Under the pieces are notes generated by a model. It did not search any database. It saw nothing but the letters and a program-made list of their open reading frames with translations, and was not told the DNA's origin. Both the position numbers and the translations under genes were made by a program. A stretch of 64,000 nt of DNA from Pseudorhodoferax sp. Leaf274 (GTDB taxonomy: Bacteria > Pseudomonadota > Gammaproteobacteria > Burkholderiales > Burkholderiaceae_C). This document shows, piece after piece, positions 34,042 through 39,361 of this stretch (positions within the stretch are counted from its first letter, which is position 1; each line of letters starts with the position of its first letter). The stretch is from NCBI RefSeq assembly GCF_001422445.1, contig NZ_LMNA01000001.1:356735-420734 (forward strand), given 5' to 3'.

Positions 34042-34056
34042 GCCTGACGCTCAGGC
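34042..34056. terminator. bidirectional terminator stem between MFS and response regulator genes
   Basis: GCCTGA, loop CGC, TCAGGC: a perfect 6-bp stem in the 11-bp gap between convergent genes. It includes the stop codon of the response regulator. There is no T-tract on either strand, so efficiency is uncertain. Confidence 0.4.
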
Positions 34057-34707
34057 GTGGCCGACCTGCAGGTCGGCATAGGAAACGGCGTACTTGACGA
34101 GCGCCGCCTGGCCCTCGATGCGCAGCTTGCGGCGCAGGTGCAGGCGGTGCGTCTCCACCGTGCGCACCGAGGCGCCCAGCGCGTCGGCGATCTCCTTGTT
34201 GGAGCAGCCATCGGCCAGCAGCGACAGCACGGCCGATTCCTTGGGCGTGAGATGGCCCCAGGCGCGCGTGACGGGCGGCGGCGCCGGCTCGGCCGGCAGC
34301 GGCAGGCCGGGGCTGAAGTAGCGCTCGCCCGCATGCACGGCGTCGATGGCCTCGACCAGCTGGTGGCCCGGGCCATCCTTGAGCACATAGCCGCGCACAT
34401 CCAGCGCCACGGCCCGGCGCACGTACTCGGCGTCCTGGTGCATGGACAGCACCAGCACGCGCAGGCCCGGGAAGCGGTCGCGGAACACGGTGGCCAGCTG
34501 GATGCCGCTGGCGTCCGGCATGCGGATGTCGGTGACCACCAGGTCGGGCTGCAGCGCGGCGGCCAGCGCCTCGGCCTCGCGCACGCTGCCGGCCTCGCCG
34601 ACCACGCGGATGTGCGGCGTGGCGTGCAGGCGCATGCGCACGCCGTCGCGCAGCAGCGGATGGTCGTCGACGAGCAGCACGCGGATCGTGGCGGAGGCTT
34701 GGGTCAT
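34051..34707 (-). CDS. NarL/FixJ-family response regulator
   Basis: A 218-residue response regulator. The receiver domain has the acidic pair in VLLVDDHPLLRDG, the phospho-acceptor aspartate in DLVVTDIRMPDASG and the lysine in YVLKDGPGHQLVEAI. The C-terminal LuxR-type HTH reads LTPKESAVLSLLADGCSNKEIADALGASVRTVETHRLHLRRKL. Its ATG overlaps the kinase stop (ATGA), so the two are translationally coupled. The operon is divergent from the RidA/PLP-enzyme genes, whose upstream region holds a CTACnnnGTAG palindrome that this protein may bind. Confidence 0.95.
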   Translation of the reverse strand: MTQASATIRVLLVDDHPLLRDGVRMRLHATPHIRVVGEAGSVREAEALAAALQPDLVVTDIRMPDASGIQLATVFRDRFPGLRVLVLSMHQDAEYVRRAVALDVRGYVLKDGPGHQLVEAIDAVHAGERYFSPGLPLPAEPAPPPVTRAWGHLTPKESAVLSLLADGCSNKEIADALGASVRTVETHRLHLRRKLRIEGQAALVKYAVSYADLQVGHA

Positions 34708-36131
34708 GGTGCGGGTTGGGCAATGGCGATGGGGTGGAGTTCGCGCGCCGGCGCCGGTGCCAGGCCGGTGGCCTGCGGCAACGGCAGCCAGGCAGCCAGG
34801 CGCGTGCCATGGCGGCCAGAATCGATGGACAGCGTGCCGCCCAGGCTCTCGGCGCGTTCGCGCATGTTGCGCAGGCCGATGCCGCGCGTGCCGTCCCCGG
34901 ACACGCCACGCATGTCGAAGCCCTGGCCGTCGTCGATGACCTGCAGGCCCACGCCCCGGCGCGTGCCGTGCAGCACGAGCTCGACGCGCGAGGCCTGGGC
35001 ATGGTTGCGGCAGTTCTGCAAGGCTTCCTGCGCGATGCGGAACAGCACGGTGCCGTGCTCGGCCGGCAGCTCGCCGGGCACGCCCTGGCGCACCAGGCCG
35101 ACGCTGAAGGCGCCGCTCTCCTGCACCTGCTGCGCCAGCAGCGCCAGCGCGGGCTCCAGCCCGAGATCGTCCAGCAGCGCCGGGCGCAGGCCGTGCGACA
35201 CGCGCCGGATCTCCACCAGCGCACTGCCCAGCCGTGCCAGCCCCTGGTCCAGCGCCTGGCGCGGGGCGGCCGGCGTCGCCGCGACCGGGTCGGCCAGCTG
35301 CAGCTGCGCCGTCTCCAGCAGGAACTTGGACGAGGCCAGCACCTGCACCACGCCGTCGTGCAGCTCGCGCGCCACGCGCACCCGTTCGTCTTCCTGCGAG
35401 CGCACCACGCGGCGTGCCAGCCGGCGCAGCTTGTCGCTGGAGACACGGTGGTCCTTCAGGTTGAGCACCACGCCGCCCAGGCCGATCAGCACCACGCAGA
35501 CCGCGGCGATGGCGTACAGCCGCTGGCGCGTGGCCTCGATGTTGGTGCGCGCGCCGGTCTCGATGGCCTGCAGCGCACCCTGCACGTCGTCCAGGTAGAT
35601 GCCGGTGCCGATGACCCAGTTCCAGCCCGGGACCGTCATCACATAGGCCAGCTTGGGCACCACCGACTGCGAGCTCGGCTTGCTCCAGCTGTAGCGCACC
35701 ACGCCGCCGCCGCGGCGCGCCGTGGCCAGGATGCGCTGCGCCGAATCGGCGCTGGCCGGATCGTTGGGATCGCAGAAGTCCACGCCCTGCATGGGCAGCA
35801 TCTTGGGGTCGATCAACAGCTGGCCATGCTGGTCGTAGACGAAGAAGTAGCCGTTGTCGCCGAACTGCATGCGCGTGAGCGTGGCCAGCGCCGCCTCCTT
35901 GCGCACGCCGACCTCCCCAGGCCCTTCGGCGATGCGCATCAGCGTGTTGCGCGCAAGCTCGACGTAGTGCTTGAGCTCGGCCTCCTTGCTGTGCAGGAAG
36001 GCCTGCTGCACCAGCGCCTGTTCCTCGCGCACGAGCTTGTAGGTCTGCTGCTGCATGGTGGCGCCCATGAGCAGCAGCGCGACCACGATGGGCACGCCCG
36101 AGAGCAGCACCAGCTTGAGGCGCAGCTGCAT
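34704..36131 (-). CDS. Cache-domain sensor histidine kinase (HisKA_3 type)
   Basis: Membrane kinase of 475 residues. An N-terminal transmembrane helix (LKLVLLSGVPIVVALLLMGATM) is followed by a periplasmic Cache domain of the single-Cache type (GYFFVYDQHGQLLIDPKMLPMQG; VPGWNWVIGTGIYLDDV). A second helix (LYAIAAVCVVLIGLGGVVLNL) leads to the HisKA_3 dimerisation helix with the phospho-histidine in VRVARELHDGVVQVLASS. The ATPase domain ends GIGLRNMRERAESLGG. Cache domains of this kind bind small molecules in the periplasm. It is the partner of the downstream regulator. Confidence 0.94.
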   Translation of the reverse strand: MQLRLKLVLLSGVPIVVALLLMGATMQQQTYKLVREEQALVQQAFLHSKEAELKHYVELARNTLMRIAEGPGEVGVRKEAALATLTRMQFGDNGYFFVYDQHGQLLIDPKMLPMQGVDFCDPNDPASADSAQRILATARRGGGVVRYSWSKPSSQSVVPKLAYVMTVPGWNWVIGTGIYLDDVQGALQAIETGARTNIEATRQRLYAIAAVCVVLIGLGGVVLNLKDHRVSSDKLRRLARRVVRSQEDERVRVARELHDGVVQVLASSKFLLETAQLQLADPVAATPAAPRQALDQGLARLGSALVEIRRVSHGLRPALLDDLGLEPALALLAQQVQESGAFSVGLVRQGVPGELPAEHGTVLFRIAQEALQNCRNHAQASRVELVLHGTRRGVGLQVIDDGQGFDMRGVSGDGTRGIGLRNMRERAESLGGTLSIDSGRHGTRLAAWLPLPQATGLAPAPARELHPIAIAQPAP

Positions 36132-36231
36132 CTCAGCGCCCCACTCCGGGGACGGGATGCACCAAAGTTTCGGCGTGGATCGGCGTGTGCATGGCGAGCG
36201 TGAATGTGCAGAGCAAACCCGGTGCCAGCCA

Positions 36232-36278
36232 GTGCCGTTTCATTTGGAAACACTGCTGCGGCGCAGCGAAAACGGCAC
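36232..36278. repeat. nested inverted repeats in the RidA upstream region
   Basis: Outer arms GTGCCGTTT (36232-36240) and AAACGGCAC (36270-36278) enclose an inner perfect hairpin GCTGC-GGC-GCAGC (36255-36267). It lies in the 344-bp gap between the divergent kinase and RidA genes. It could be a regulator-binding region or the leader structure of the kinase transcript. Confidence 0.5.
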
Positions 36279-36297
36279 CGCACGACCTGGCTGCGTA

Positions 36298-36308
36298 CTA
36301 CCACGTAG
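36298..36308. promoter_or_regulatory. CTACnnnGTAG palindrome, possible response-regulator site
   Basis: CTACCACGTAG is a perfect inverted repeat with a 3-base spacer, set in a longer TACTACCACGTAGGGG. Its centre is about 54 bp upstream of the start point predicted from the promoter at 36322-36350, a normal position for activation. TAC-containing sites are usual for NarL-type regulators, one of which is encoded next door. Confidence 0.45.
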
Positions 36309-36321
36309 GGGAAATGAAACC

Positions 36322-36350
36322 GTCACATACCGTGATGCCGTTCCTAGAAT
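36322..36350 (+). promoter_or_regulatory. sigma70-like promoter for the RidA/PLP-enzyme genes
   Basis: GTCACA (36322-36327), 17-bp spacer, TAGAAT (36345-36350). The -10 element matches 5 of 6 consensus bases and the -35 element 4 of 6. The predicted start near 36357 leaves a leader of about 120 bases. TCAC-ATACC-GTGA (36323-36335), a small inverted repeat, overlaps the -35. Confidence 0.5.
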
Positions 36351-36475
36351 TCGGCGCAAGTTAGACCGCATTGCGCTGCAGCAAAAACATCCCGGGAGGG
36401 TCTGGCTTCTCGTCCCGTCGCATGGCCTCGATGCCCTGCGTCGTTCTTGATTCCAGAAGAAGGAAAGGTAGCTCC

Positions 36476-36949
36476 ATGCCCAACAACATCCGTGCCGGCC
36501 GCTTCACCAAGGTGGTGGCCGGCTGCGCCGCAGCCCTGCTCATGACGGCCTGCGCCATGCCGGCCAAGCGCACCGTGCTGTCGACCACCGGCGTGCCGCC
36601 GGCGATCGGCCCGTACTCGCAGATGGTCTCGCACGGCAACACGCTGTACCTCTCGGGCGTGATCCCGCTCAACGAGGCCGGCAACGCCGTCGTCGGCACC
36701 ACCATCGAGGAGCAGACGCATGCGGTGCTGCGCTACATCGGCACCATGCTCAAGTCGCAGGGGCTGGACTACGCCGACGTGCTGTCGTCCTCGGTCTACA
36801 TGAAGGACCTCAACGAGTTCGCGGCGATGAACAAGGTCTACGGCGAGTACTTCAAGCCGGGCAACGCGCCGGTGCGCGCCACCGTCGAAGTGGCACGTTT
36901 GCCGCGTGACGTGAAGGTCGAGATCGCCGTCATCGTCGGCCGCCGTTGA
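36476..36949 (+). CDS. RidA-family (YjgF/YER057c/UK114) lipoprotein
   Basis: A RidA-fold imine deaminase of 157 residues with an unusual export signal. Residues 1-30 form a lipoprotein signal peptide with the lipobox LMTACAMPAK. The mature part has GVPPAIGPYSQMVSHGNTLYLSG, the middle VYMKDLNEFAAMNKVYGEYF and PVRATVEVARLPRDVKVEIAV. The arginine and first glutamate equivalent, by my recollection, to Arg105 and Glu120 of Escherichia coli RidA are kept. RidA proteins hydrolyse reactive enamines released by PLP enzymes but are normally cytoplasmic. The next gene, 23 bp on, encodes an exported PLP enzyme, which suggests joint action in the envelope. Confidence 0.9.
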   Translation: MPNNIRAGRFTKVVAGCAAALLMTACAMPAKRTVLSTTGVPPAIGPYSQMVSHGNTLYLSGVIPLNEAGNAVVGTTIEEQTHAVLRYIGTMLKSQGLDYADVLSSSVYMKDLNEFAAMNKVYGEYFKPGNAPVRATVEVARLPRDVKVEIAVIVGRR

Positions 36950-36972
36950 ACCCGTCCAGGAGCACACACACC

Positions 36973-38442
36973 ATGCAAGAACAACACATCGCCGCCGCCC
37001 GCACGCCGGACCTGAACGCACTGGCCGCGGCCGACACCACGCGCTGGCCGTCCAAGCGGCGCGACTTCCTGCGCATGCTGGGCTACGGCGCCGGCGCCGC
37101 CACGATGGGCCCCATGCTGATGGCCTGCGGCAGCAGCAACTCGGCCACGCCGGCCGCCGAACTGCGCGCGCAGCTGGTGGCCAACGAGGCCTTCTGGACC
37201 AACGTGCAGAACATGTTCACGCTGGACCCGGCCCGCACCTTCCTGAACATCGGCACGGCCGGCTCCATGCCCAAGGTGGCGCTGGACCTGTTCGACACCG
37301 AGAACCGCAAGAAGGCCAGGGAGTCGGGCAACGGCTACTCGGACCACAACGCGCTGCGCGCGCTGGTGGCGCCCGCCTTCGGCGTGGACACCGACGAGCT
37401 GGCCTTCTCGGCCAACACCTCCTCGGGCATGTGCCACGCGATCCTGGGCATCCCCTGGCAGCGCGGCGACGTGGTGGTGACGACCAACCACGAGCATGGC
37501 GGCGGCAACACGCCGCTCAACATCGCGGTGGACCGCTACGGCATCGAGGTCTCGCGCATCGAGATGCCGGTGGGCAACAACCAGACCGCCGCGACCTACC
37601 AGAACCTGTTCGACGAGCGCATCCGCACGCTCAAGGCGGCCGGCAAGAACGTGCGCGCCGTGATGTGGTCGTCGCCCACCTACGTGACGGGCACGCTGCT
37701 GCCGATCGCCGAGATCATGGAAGTGGTCAAGACGCACGGGCTGATCAGCATCGTCGACGGCGCCCACCTGCCGGGCATGATGCACTACGACTACGGCGCG
37801 CTCGGCATGGACTTCATGTCCGGCGCCGGCCACAAGTGGCAGTGCGGCCCGGGCTCCACCGGCATCCTGATCATCCGCAACAAGATCCGCGCCTCCAACC
37901 CGCTGCCGCTGCCCAAGTGGTACCCGGTGCACACCAGCACCTATTCCACGCGCGAGCGCACGACCAATGGCACGGCGACCTACGACATCGCCGCCAGCGT
38001 GACCAGCTGCGGCAGCACGCACACGCCGCTGTTCCAGTCGCTGGTCAGCGCCTGCCAGCTGTGGGACGAGATCGGCCGCAAGAACATCGAGACCTACGAC
38101 CTCACGCTGTCGGCCTACCTCAAGGAGAAGATCGTCGAGCGCTGGGGCGTGGACGCGCTGTACTCGCCCAAGGACGACCCCAAGCTGGTGTGCGCACTGA
38201 CCTCGTTCAACGTGTTCCGCAACAAGGACGACGCGATGAACTCGGCCAAGGCCACGCAGTTCGTCTCGCGCCTGCAGGCCGAGTACCCGCAGGGCCTGGT
38301 GATCCGCAACGCCAGCTTCCCGGTGATCGGCGCGGCGTCGAACCACTACGCGATGCGCATCTCCACCCACCTGTGGCACGACGCGAACGACATCGATGCG
38401 CTGGTCGATGCGATGTGGGACCTGTCGGGCAAGATGGCCTGA
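36973..38442 (+). CDS. Tat-exported class V aminotransferase-fold PLP enzyme
   Basis: A 489-residue PLP enzyme of the isopenicillin-N-epimerase/cysteine-desulfurase fold. The N-terminus carries a Tat signal, WPSKRRDFLRMLGYGAGAA, ending in a possible lipobox LMACGSS. The catalytic domain has TAGSMPKVALD, SANTSSGMCHAILG, NHEHGGGNTP, SIVDGAHLPGM and the Schiff-base lysine in SGAGHKWQCGPG. Tat transport would export the enzyme folded with its cofactor, as for PvdN of pseudomonads. ATG 36973 follows CCAGGAG. It is downstream of the RidA-like lipoprotein and divergent from the Cache kinase. Transaminase, lyase and epimerase activity are all possible. Confidence 0.88.
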   Translation: MQEQHIAAARTPDLNALAAADTTRWPSKRRDFLRMLGYGAGAATMGPMLMACGSSNSATPAAELRAQLVANEAFWTNVQNMFTLDPARTFLNIGTAGSMPKVALDLFDTENRKKARESGNGYSDHNALRALVAPAFGVDTDELAFSANTSSGMCHAILGIPWQRGDVVVTTNHEHGGGNTPLNIAVDRYGIEVSRIEMPVGNNQTAATYQNLFDERIRTLKAAGKNVRAVMWSSPTYVTGTLLPIAEIMEVVKTHGLISIVDGAHLPGMMHYDYGALGMDFMSGAGHKWQCGPGSTGILIIRNKIRASNPLPLPKWYPVHTSTYSTRERTTNGTATYDIAASVTSCGSTHTPLFQSLVSACQLWDEIGRKNIETYDLTLSAYLKEKIVERWGVDALYSPKDDPKLVCALTSFNVFRNKDDAMNSAKATQFVSRLQAEYPQGLVIRNASFPVIGAASNHYAMRISTHLWHDANDIDALVDAMWDLSGKMA

Positions 38443-38446
38443 GCCG

Positions 38447-39361
38447 TCAGCCCAGCTCGGGCGCCAGGCCCGGCGCCTTGTCCATGTCGGCCCCGTTGTA
38501 CAGCTTGTGCTGCGCAGCGGGGCTGCCCACATCGGACACCACGGCCAGACGCCACTGCGGGTCGCGGCGCGCGAAGGCGCGCTGCTCGGCCGTCAGCGCA
38601 AAGCCGGTCGCACCCGTGGCCGTGCCCTTCACGACGAGCTTGAGCAGCGTCTTGCCCTTCTTGTCGCGCACTTCCACCTCGTAGCCCGGATGGGGGGTCT
38701 CGGTGGCCTCGGTCTTGTAGCCGTAGCCGGCGAAATGGCGCGCCAGGTGGTCGAGCGCGGCCGATTGCAGGTCGCCGCCGCCCACCTCGATGGCCGCGGC
38801 ATCCGGCGCGGGCTCGGCGATGCCGGCGCGCTGGCGCGCGGCCTGGATCTCGGCCTCGCTGGGCACCCAGCCGCGCGGGCCGCGCACCAGCACCACATGG
38901 CGCTGCTCGGGGCTCCAGACGGCCACATGCCATTCCTGCTCGTCGGGCACGCGCACCGACATGCGCGCCGCCTTGTCGGTCTCCAGGTCGGCGATCGCCA
39001 CGCGGTTGGTCTGCAGCACGGCGCGCAGGCCCTGGCCCGCATCGAGCGCGCGCTTGATCAGCTGGATGCGGTCCTTGGTGCGCTGGATGCGCAGGTCGGT
39101 GCGCTCGCCGCCGCCGATGCGGTGCAGCGGGTCGAGCGACTCCAGCAGGAACCAGCGCCCGCCCTCGCCGACGCTGACCAGCTCGGCCCAGACGGTGACG
39201 ATGATGTTGTCGCCACTGGCCAGCCAGGCCATGTCGGAGGCCTTGTCGCGCGCGTCGAACACGCCCATCTTGGTGATGATCTCGACCGGCGTGCGCTTGT
39301 CGCCCGACAGGCGCTTCTCGTTGATGACCGCCAGCACGGCGGGGGCGACTTCTTTGTCCAT
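38447..39361 (-). CDS. DUF3883 domain protein, function unknown
   Basis: Cytoplasmic protein of 304 residues. The N-terminal two thirds (MDKEVAPAVLAVINEKRLSGDKR onward) are not recognised; they include a charged beta-rich segment and a helical linker around residues 165-205. The C-terminal part, GYGYKTEATETPHPGYEVEVRDKKGKTLLKLVVKGTATGATGFALTAEQRAFARRDPQWRLAVVSDV, follows DUF3883, a fold related to restriction-endonuclease-like modules. The place where related proteins have an E-V-K-like motif reads VVKGT here, so nuclease activity is doubtful. It converges on the PLP-enzyme gene with a 4-bp gap. Confidence 0.7.
   Translation of the reverse strand: MDKEVAPAVLAVINEKRLSGDKRTPVEIITKMGVFDARDKASDMAWLASGDNIIVTVWAELVSVGEGGRWFLLESLDPLHRIGGGERTDLRIQRTKDRIQLIKRALDAGQGLRAVLQTNRVAIADLETDKAARMSVRVPDEQEWHVAVWSPEQRHVVLVRGPRGWVPSEAEIQAARQRAGIAEPAPDAAAIEVGGGDLQSAALDHLARHFAGYGYKTEATETPHPGYEVEVRDKKGKTLLKLVVKGTATGATGFALTAEQRAFARRDPQWRLAVVSDVGSPAAQHKLYNGADMDKAPGLAPELG

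Follow-up and report, generated by a model that had tools for sequence, protein, structure and literature searches.

RidA and the stress caused by 2-aminoacrylate are generally studied as matters of the cytoplasm. RidA genes cluster with genes of pyridoxal phosphate (PLP) enzymes able to make 2-aminoacrylate, as described in passages of PMC4433059. Among the closest known systems is that of PvdN, a periplasmic PLP enzyme of class V fold with a twin-arginine translocation (Tat) signal, whose gene is part of the pvdMNO operon (PMC6206403, excerpts) and whose chemistry is covered in parts of PMC6206403 and PMC7497351. A sensory system of related design is formed by the Cache-domain kinase MctS and the response regulator MctR, which control MctP, a carrier of pyruvate, lactate, and alanine (PMC9100948, in the passages available). 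Here, we describe a four-gene locus in a 64,000-nucleotide stretch of the genome of Pseudorhodoferax sp. Leaf274 (contig NZ_LMNA01000001.1, positions 356,735 to 420,734; hereafter, the window), in which a RidA-family gene with a lipoprotein signal adjoins the gene of a PLP enzyme of class V that bears a Tat signal, and a Cache-domain kinase and a NarL-type regulator are encoded divergently. Translation and Pfam searches located the four genes where an initial annotation had placed them; the observation is confirmed and is stronger than that annotation put it, the gene pair, its co-export as judged by motif, and its dedicated regulation being well supported.

The RidA-family gene (36476..36949, + strand) starts at ATG 36476 and encodes 157 amino acids. 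Its product matched Pfam Ribonuc_L-PSP (PF01042) at 1.7e-34 and scored 127.8 bits against TIGR00004, above the cut-off for family membership (106.25), and its N-terminus ends in LLMTAC, in which, read by eye as a motif, Cys26 (codon 36551..36553, + strand) is the candidate lipid-bearing residue; Met at position -3 of this lipobox is unusual. The protein thus belongs to the same family as the cytoplasmic enamine/imine deaminase RidA/YjgF and has the same active-site Arg, Glu, and Tyr, whereas the usual RidA carries no signal. R134, E149, and Y47, of which we take the latter two to be the active-site Glu and Tyr, were invariant in 15 of 15 aligned sequences. A catalytic role of the Arg in the RidA family is described in passages of PMC4433059. 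The other four RidA matches in the host genome showed no lipoprotein signal in the frames read. Among the open-access papers listed by the literature searches, none describes a RidA or Rid protein that is exported or periplasmic, judging from titles, the beginnings of abstracts, and passages, and a search of the text of PMC4433059 for periplasm, signal peptide, and lipoprotein gave no match.

The PLP enzyme gene (36973..38442, + strand; 489 amino acids) follows on the same strand after 23 bases. Its start is most likely ATG 36973, which is preceded by AGGAG at 36958-36962, and not TTG 36946. The N-terminus, KRRDFLRMLGYGAGAATMGPMLMAC, contains the twin-arginine stretch KRRDFLRMLG, in which R29 and R30 (codons 37057..37062, + strand) were invariant in 16 of 16 aligned rows, and then a lipobox, LMAC, with Cys52 (codon 37126..37128, + strand; motif by eye) as the candidate lipid-bearing residue. 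The enzyme therefore has a Tat signal by motif, as PvdN does, and by virtue of the lipobox it would be a lipoprotein too, a point absent from the initial annotation. That annotation had otherwise read both proteins correctly: the RidA fold, the lipoprotein signal, and the retained key Arg and Glu are borne out by the TIGR00004 score, the LLMTAC motif, and the invariance of R134 and E149, and, for the PLP enzyme, class V membership and the Tat signal are borne out by the match to Pfam Aminotran_5 and by R29 and R30.

Alignment with Escherichia coli SufS paired K288, D262, H175, R445, and R462 of the enzyme with SufS K226, D200, H123, R359, and R379. Among 48 aligned members, K288, D262, R445, and R462 were invariant and H175 was at least 90% conserved, so that the enzyme has what we take to be the PLP lysine, the Asp, the His, and the two substrate arginines of class V enzymes acting on alpha-amino acids. 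No counterpart of the SufS catalytic cysteine, presumably Cys364, was found in this alignment, which ruled out a cysteine desulfurase. With both substrate arginines present, the enzyme should bind an alpha-amino acid through its carboxylate. When a profile of the 48 members was compared with solved structures, the best scores were those of C-DES (135 bits), PvdN (133 bits), and Egt2 (124 bits), all above the desulfurases. Both C-DES, which acts on L-cysteine or cystine, and Egt2 carry the name of C-S lyases; to our knowledge, neither is exported, and the sequence similarity of the window enzyme to them is low. The PvdN model NF051467 was the top NCBIfam match of the enzyme at 69.9 bits, far below the cut-off of 650, and an orthologue of PvdN was ruled out on this score; unlike PvdN, the window enzyme is paired with RidA and a two-component system. 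At another locus (L114 7896-9614), the PLP gene was matched as two overlapping pieces, a possible frameshift or assembly error.

The conservation of the pair was examined by a protein search of 299 genomes of the same family, in which the PLP query (E <=1e-30) matched 23 genomes and the RidA query (E <=1e-22) matched 24, 22 of which were in the PLP list at neighboring coordinates. Both genes were thus present in 22 genomes, the PLP gene alone in one (G207), RidA alone in two (G238 and G266), and neither in 274; the Fisher p of 5e-30 for this co-occurrence is overstated because the genomes are related. RidA adjoins the PLP gene in 21 of the 22 loci of family relatives (window excluded), the exception being the locus in G207 (L058). 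Absence of the pair from related genomes, which the initial annotation had named as grounds for refutation, was not borne out: the pair was present there, adjacent in all but this one locus. A scan of genome contigs identified 163 relatives, and in the best 80 of these (hereafter, the named loci), RidA is adjacent to the PLP gene in 61. The adjacent-RidA loci extend to Alphaproteobacteria, Actinomycetota, and Myxococcota, examples being Microvirga, Methylopila, Chelatococcus, Micromonospora, Terrabacter, and metagenome-assembled genomes (MAGs) of Myxococcota. A Palleronia plasmid member with 29.8% identity has an adjoining Rid protein with a signal, and two Streptomyces plasmid members have the twin-arginine motif and no Rid neighbor. 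Among 398 genomes sampled across the phylum, 10 had a match at E <=1e-40; the three close members (the window's own, G219, and G630) all have an exported RidA adjacent, and five weaker matches, at 117-136 bits, belong to more distantly related proteins of class V and have no RidA. These counts indicate that the PLP family is uncommon and that RidA accompanies its nearer part. Pfam assignments for 29 chosen open-frame proteins neighboring the distant loci were mostly unrelated to one another.

Export signals were read by motif and by motif conservation. An N-terminal export signal was present in all 61 adjacent RidA proteins of the named loci, of lipobox pattern in 49 and signal-peptidase-I-like in 12, which indicates that co-export goes with pairing. 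Within the family set, a lipobox was found in 19 of 21 RidA proteins and, by eye, an AxA site in the other two (L050 and L051). The twin-arginine motif was at the expected place of the PLP protein in 75 of the 80 named loci; in three of the remaining five, another stretch had been matched (L071, L077, and L102), one begins inside the signal (L101), and in one none was found (L131). PLP proteins that have no lipobox (e.g., L056 and L059) are still of the Tat type. Lipoproteins of the RidA family, by motif, are also encoded in G238 and G266 (L166 1507-1944 and L167 1483-1929), in which the PLP gene is absent at E 1e-30, and exported RidA may therefore be a wider class; the gene in L166 adjoins an OmpR-like regulator.

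On the opposite strand lie the genes of the sensor histidine kinase (34704..36131, - strand), with a single Cache domain (sCache_2, 4.6e-29), HisKA_3, and HATPase_c, and of the NarL/LuxR-type response regulator (34051..34707, - strand), with Response_reg and GerE. Kinase and regulator genes are present in 14 of the 15 loci of family relatives whose PLP enzyme is at least 71% identical (L038-L051, not L052), the match being weak in L051, and are absent from the remaining seven of the 22 family loci; they are also present in 37 of the 80 named loci, all 37 of which have RidA. At one locus (L049 10595-12009), the kinase was matched as two overlapping pieces, possibly owing to a frameshift or an assembly error. 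The divergent region between the kinase and RidA genes is 344 bases long and contains a tandem repeat of the form YTRCGTA-N3-YYRCGTARGGGAAA, realized in the window as CTGCGTACTACCACGTAGGGGAAA (36291..36314, + strand), upstream of both genes at a distance of 161 bases from that of RidA and 159 from that of the kinase. A palindrome, CTAC-N3-GTAG, had been considered as the motif, and its exact core TAC-N3-GTA occurred in 17 of the 38 loci that have the two-component system and in none of the 43 that lack it; it was replaced by the tandem repeat. CTRCGTA, on either strand, was found in the upstream region of all 38 loci that have the system, counting the window, and of 1 of the 43 that lack it, as compared with a mean of 2.6 and a maximum of 7 of 38 in shuffled controls; the start codons used to delimit these regions were approximate, the 38 loci are relatives of one another, and the 38 of 38 is partly circular, the motif having been derived from the loci counted.

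The occurrence of a single site per genome is not subject to this circularity. With up to two mismatches allowed, the 24-base pattern had one site in the 6.7-Mb host genome, namely that at 36291-36314 of the window, and a shorter form of the pattern occurred once in the window, where 0.06 were expected. The pattern was present in all of 12 further genomes, at 13 sites, 12 of which are just upstream of the pair by coordinates, and the reversed control pattern had no site in the same 12 genomes; as the pattern was drawn from such loci, its presence is expected and its singleness is the informative part. The thirteenth site, in Acidovorax (L222, around 1501-1524), has two mismatches and no pair beside it; on the opposite strand of this repeat copy is a frame that resembles, by eye, a phosphopantetheinyl transferase (2101-2928). 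The single genomic site makes the regulator look dedicated, and it seems to serve one promoter, with the tandem repeat as its probable binding site, judging from these genome pattern counts. The divergent Cache kinase and NarL-type regulator of the initial annotation are thus present opposite the pair, and the regulatory link that it had guessed gained support from the 38/38 versus 1/43 distribution and the lone full site.

The Cache domain is akin to those of a Vibrio parahaemolyticus protein and of Adeh_3718, which hold pyruvate and acetate in their pockets according to parts of PMC5062169. In the alignments, PscD residues Tyr90, Tyr143, Trp145, and Lys156 have their equivalents in it, as does the extra Tyr of the pyruvate-bound domain; PscD Trp92 is replaced by Phe, a feature shared with the V. 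parahaemolyticus domain. Of 37 loci, 25 have Asp, 11 Asn, and 1 Glu at the position of the ligand-binding His103, and the window has Asp; this change may mark a shift to an amino-bearing ligand. A paralogous Cache kinase and regulator in the host genome (L002 1238-3284, contig C9), with 67% DNA identity over 1.3 kb, keeps the pocket His and has no RidA or PLP gene in the 4.3 kb examined. The best NCBIfam models were MctS for the kinase (374.7 bits, cut-off 700) and MctR for the regulator (195.3 bits, cut-off 300); the window pair shares with MctS/MctR the combination of a Cache kinase and a response regulator (PMC9100948, in part) and differs in falling below these cut-offs and in having a neighbor that is not MctP; the replaced carboxylate-binding His may be a further difference. 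MctP-like symporters are encoded near the pair in Micromonospora (453 bits) and Terrabacter (409 bits; cut-off 625), and a tripartite ATP-independent periplasmic (TRAP) carrier is encoded in the pair loci of Lautropia and G226; apart from a TRAP carrier beside a RidA-less Vibrio copy (L132), the 80 named loci and 30 others searched for MctP and TRAP carriers contained no more of them, and these neighbors are only suggestive.

Trees of the PLP enzymes (43 rows) and RidA proteins (42 rows) disagree, in keeping with an exchange of partners. A 19-row PLP clade (100/98) holds Pseudorhodoferax, Delftia, Cupriavidus, Lampropedia, Verticiella, Cognatazoarcus, and one Acidovorax, and the window's RidA clade comprises 20 rows (100/99), outside which are the RidA proteins of the last five. 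In these five, RidA follows the PLP gene, as opposed to the RidA-first order of the window; one PLP clade thus carries RidA of two clades, with differing gene order. In V. superstes, V. inusitatus, and G814, a second PLP paralogue, with 53% identity to the first Vibrio copy and a Tat signal, is divergent to an exported RidA (L234 3961-6155, L235 3717-5912, and L236 3167-5362), and the idea that the exported RidA of Vibrio acts in trans was accordingly dropped. In a 38-row tree, the exported RidA proteins of V. superstes and V. inusitatus (L234 and L235) fall among the cytosolic RidA of Gammaproteobacteria (11 rows, 96/89), apart from the exported RidA of Betaproteobacteria; 10 rows of this tree are cytosolic, and its deep forks, like those of the other trees, are weak. 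By this placement, an exported RidA has probably come to stand next to a Tat-PLP gene on at least two occasions.

Because C-S lyases release 2-aminoacrylate, a RidA beside such an enzyme is chemically sensible, and the reading that we prefer, at a little under an even chance and with its chemistry as a reasoned guess, is that a lyase in the envelope gives off a reactive enamine, which RidA converts to a 2-oxo acid. The PLP enzyme would fold with its cofactor in the cytoplasm, be exported by the Tat pathway, and be anchored by lipid; outside the inner membrane, it would act on an alpha-amino acid, free or in a conjugate such as an S-substituted cysteine, and a beta-elimination like that of a C-S lyase would yield 2-aminoacrylate or a similar enamine or imine. 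The RidA lipoprotein would hydrolyze this product to pyruvate, or another 2-oxo acid, and ammonia, followed by uptake. Outside the membrane, a small carboxylate or amino acid of the pathway would be sensed by the Cache kinase, whose NarL-type partner would switch the pair on from the tandem repeat in the shared promoter. A periplasmic amino-compound conversion with enamine detoxification, as the initial annotation had proposed, is supported by the pair in relatives and by the export signals.

Several observations weigh against this reading or parts of it. The PLP gene has no adjacent RidA in 19 of the 80 named loci, which are mostly of a distant Vibrio/Shewanella type: Herbaspirillum, Variovorax soli, Thioalkalivibrio, Limnobacter, three Kiloniellales, four Vibrio, a Desulfobacteraceae MAG, Nocardia, five Shewanella, and Psychromonas; four of these loci (L101, L105, L113, and L122) are at contig ends, with less than 1.3 kb on one side. 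In the phylum sample, G592, G546, and G543 (~400 bits) have the twin-arginine motif and no RidA within 0.6-1.5 kb on each side, so that among the six strong matches RidA is adjacent in the three closest only. RidA is therefore not obligatory for every Tat-exported enzyme of the family. Loss of the carboxylate-binding His from the Cache pocket at all 37 loci speaks against plain pyruvate sensing, and the candidate role of a plain pyruvate sensor is weakened accordingly. The MctP and TRAP neighbors are found in few loci, the matches to MctS, MctR, and MctP are all below the NCBIfam cut-offs, and a TRAP carrier is also located beside a RidA-less copy in Vibrio ezurae (L132). The profile scores of 135 and 133 bits fail to separate lyase from PvdN-like chemistry.

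This near tie with C-DES, together with the standing of PvdN as the Tat-exported relative of known function among the matches and as the top NCBIfam match, would fit an envelope pair in which the PLP enzyme uses oxygen as PvdN does, for the oxidative removal of a carboxyl or amino group from an exported peptide, siderophore, or metabolite, and RidA hydrolyzes the imine product. We consider this unlikely, in view of the wide gap between 69.9 bits and the PvdN cut-off and of the pyoverdine review PMC6206403, in which RidA has 0 occurrences. No siderophore or peptide-synthetase cluster was recognized in the flanks examined, in which there was one AMP-binding enzyme (L115). A periplasmic transaminase or epimerase, with RidA merely guarding envelope PLP enzymes from stray enamines, is distinctly unlikely: transaminases need an oxo-acid acceptor, which would have to be periplasmic, and the tight association of RidA with the PLP gene and its recruitment more than once suggest that the enamine is a main product. 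In its favor are the Pfam class Aminotran_5 and the existence of a Tat-exported transaminase, PtaA (PMC6206403, excerpts). That the RidA lipoprotein serves the PLP enzyme as a chaperone or as a binding subunit, and is not an imine hydrolase, is very unlikely, since R134, E149, and Y47 are invariant and RidA clades interchange beside one PLP clade, although other functions of the RidA family are on record, including "translation inhibitors" (PMC9537276, in the passages available) and the "redox-regulated chaperone" in the product name of E. coli RidA. Chance neighborhood of genes with unrelated functions is hardly credible given the 22/23 co-occurrence, several gene orders, and several phyla, even with exported RidA alone in G238 and G266 and the PLP gene alone in G207.

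Beyond the preferred envelope lyase with its RidA, a broader reading appears evenly poised to us: extracytoplasmic enamine handling, of which the papers searched contain no description, would be widespread, exported RidA guarding Tat-PLP enzymes would have arisen more than once, and Burkholderiales would have added a private switch with a single target promoter, its Cache domain retooled by the change of the pocket His to Asp, Asn, or Glu for an amino compound over a plain carboxylate. If true, the existence of a conserved exported pair would imply that reactive enamines arise beyond the inner membrane and would add a class of Tat-exported PLP enzymes besides those of pyoverdine tailoring, and the ligand of the one-promoter sensor should reveal the substrate. 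Directly after the PLP gene, the window encodes a protein with a C-terminal NOV_C domain (38447-39361, - strand); a NOV_C-domain gene is at the same place in two of three same-genus relatives and in none of 19 others, and it shows no sign of membership in the system.

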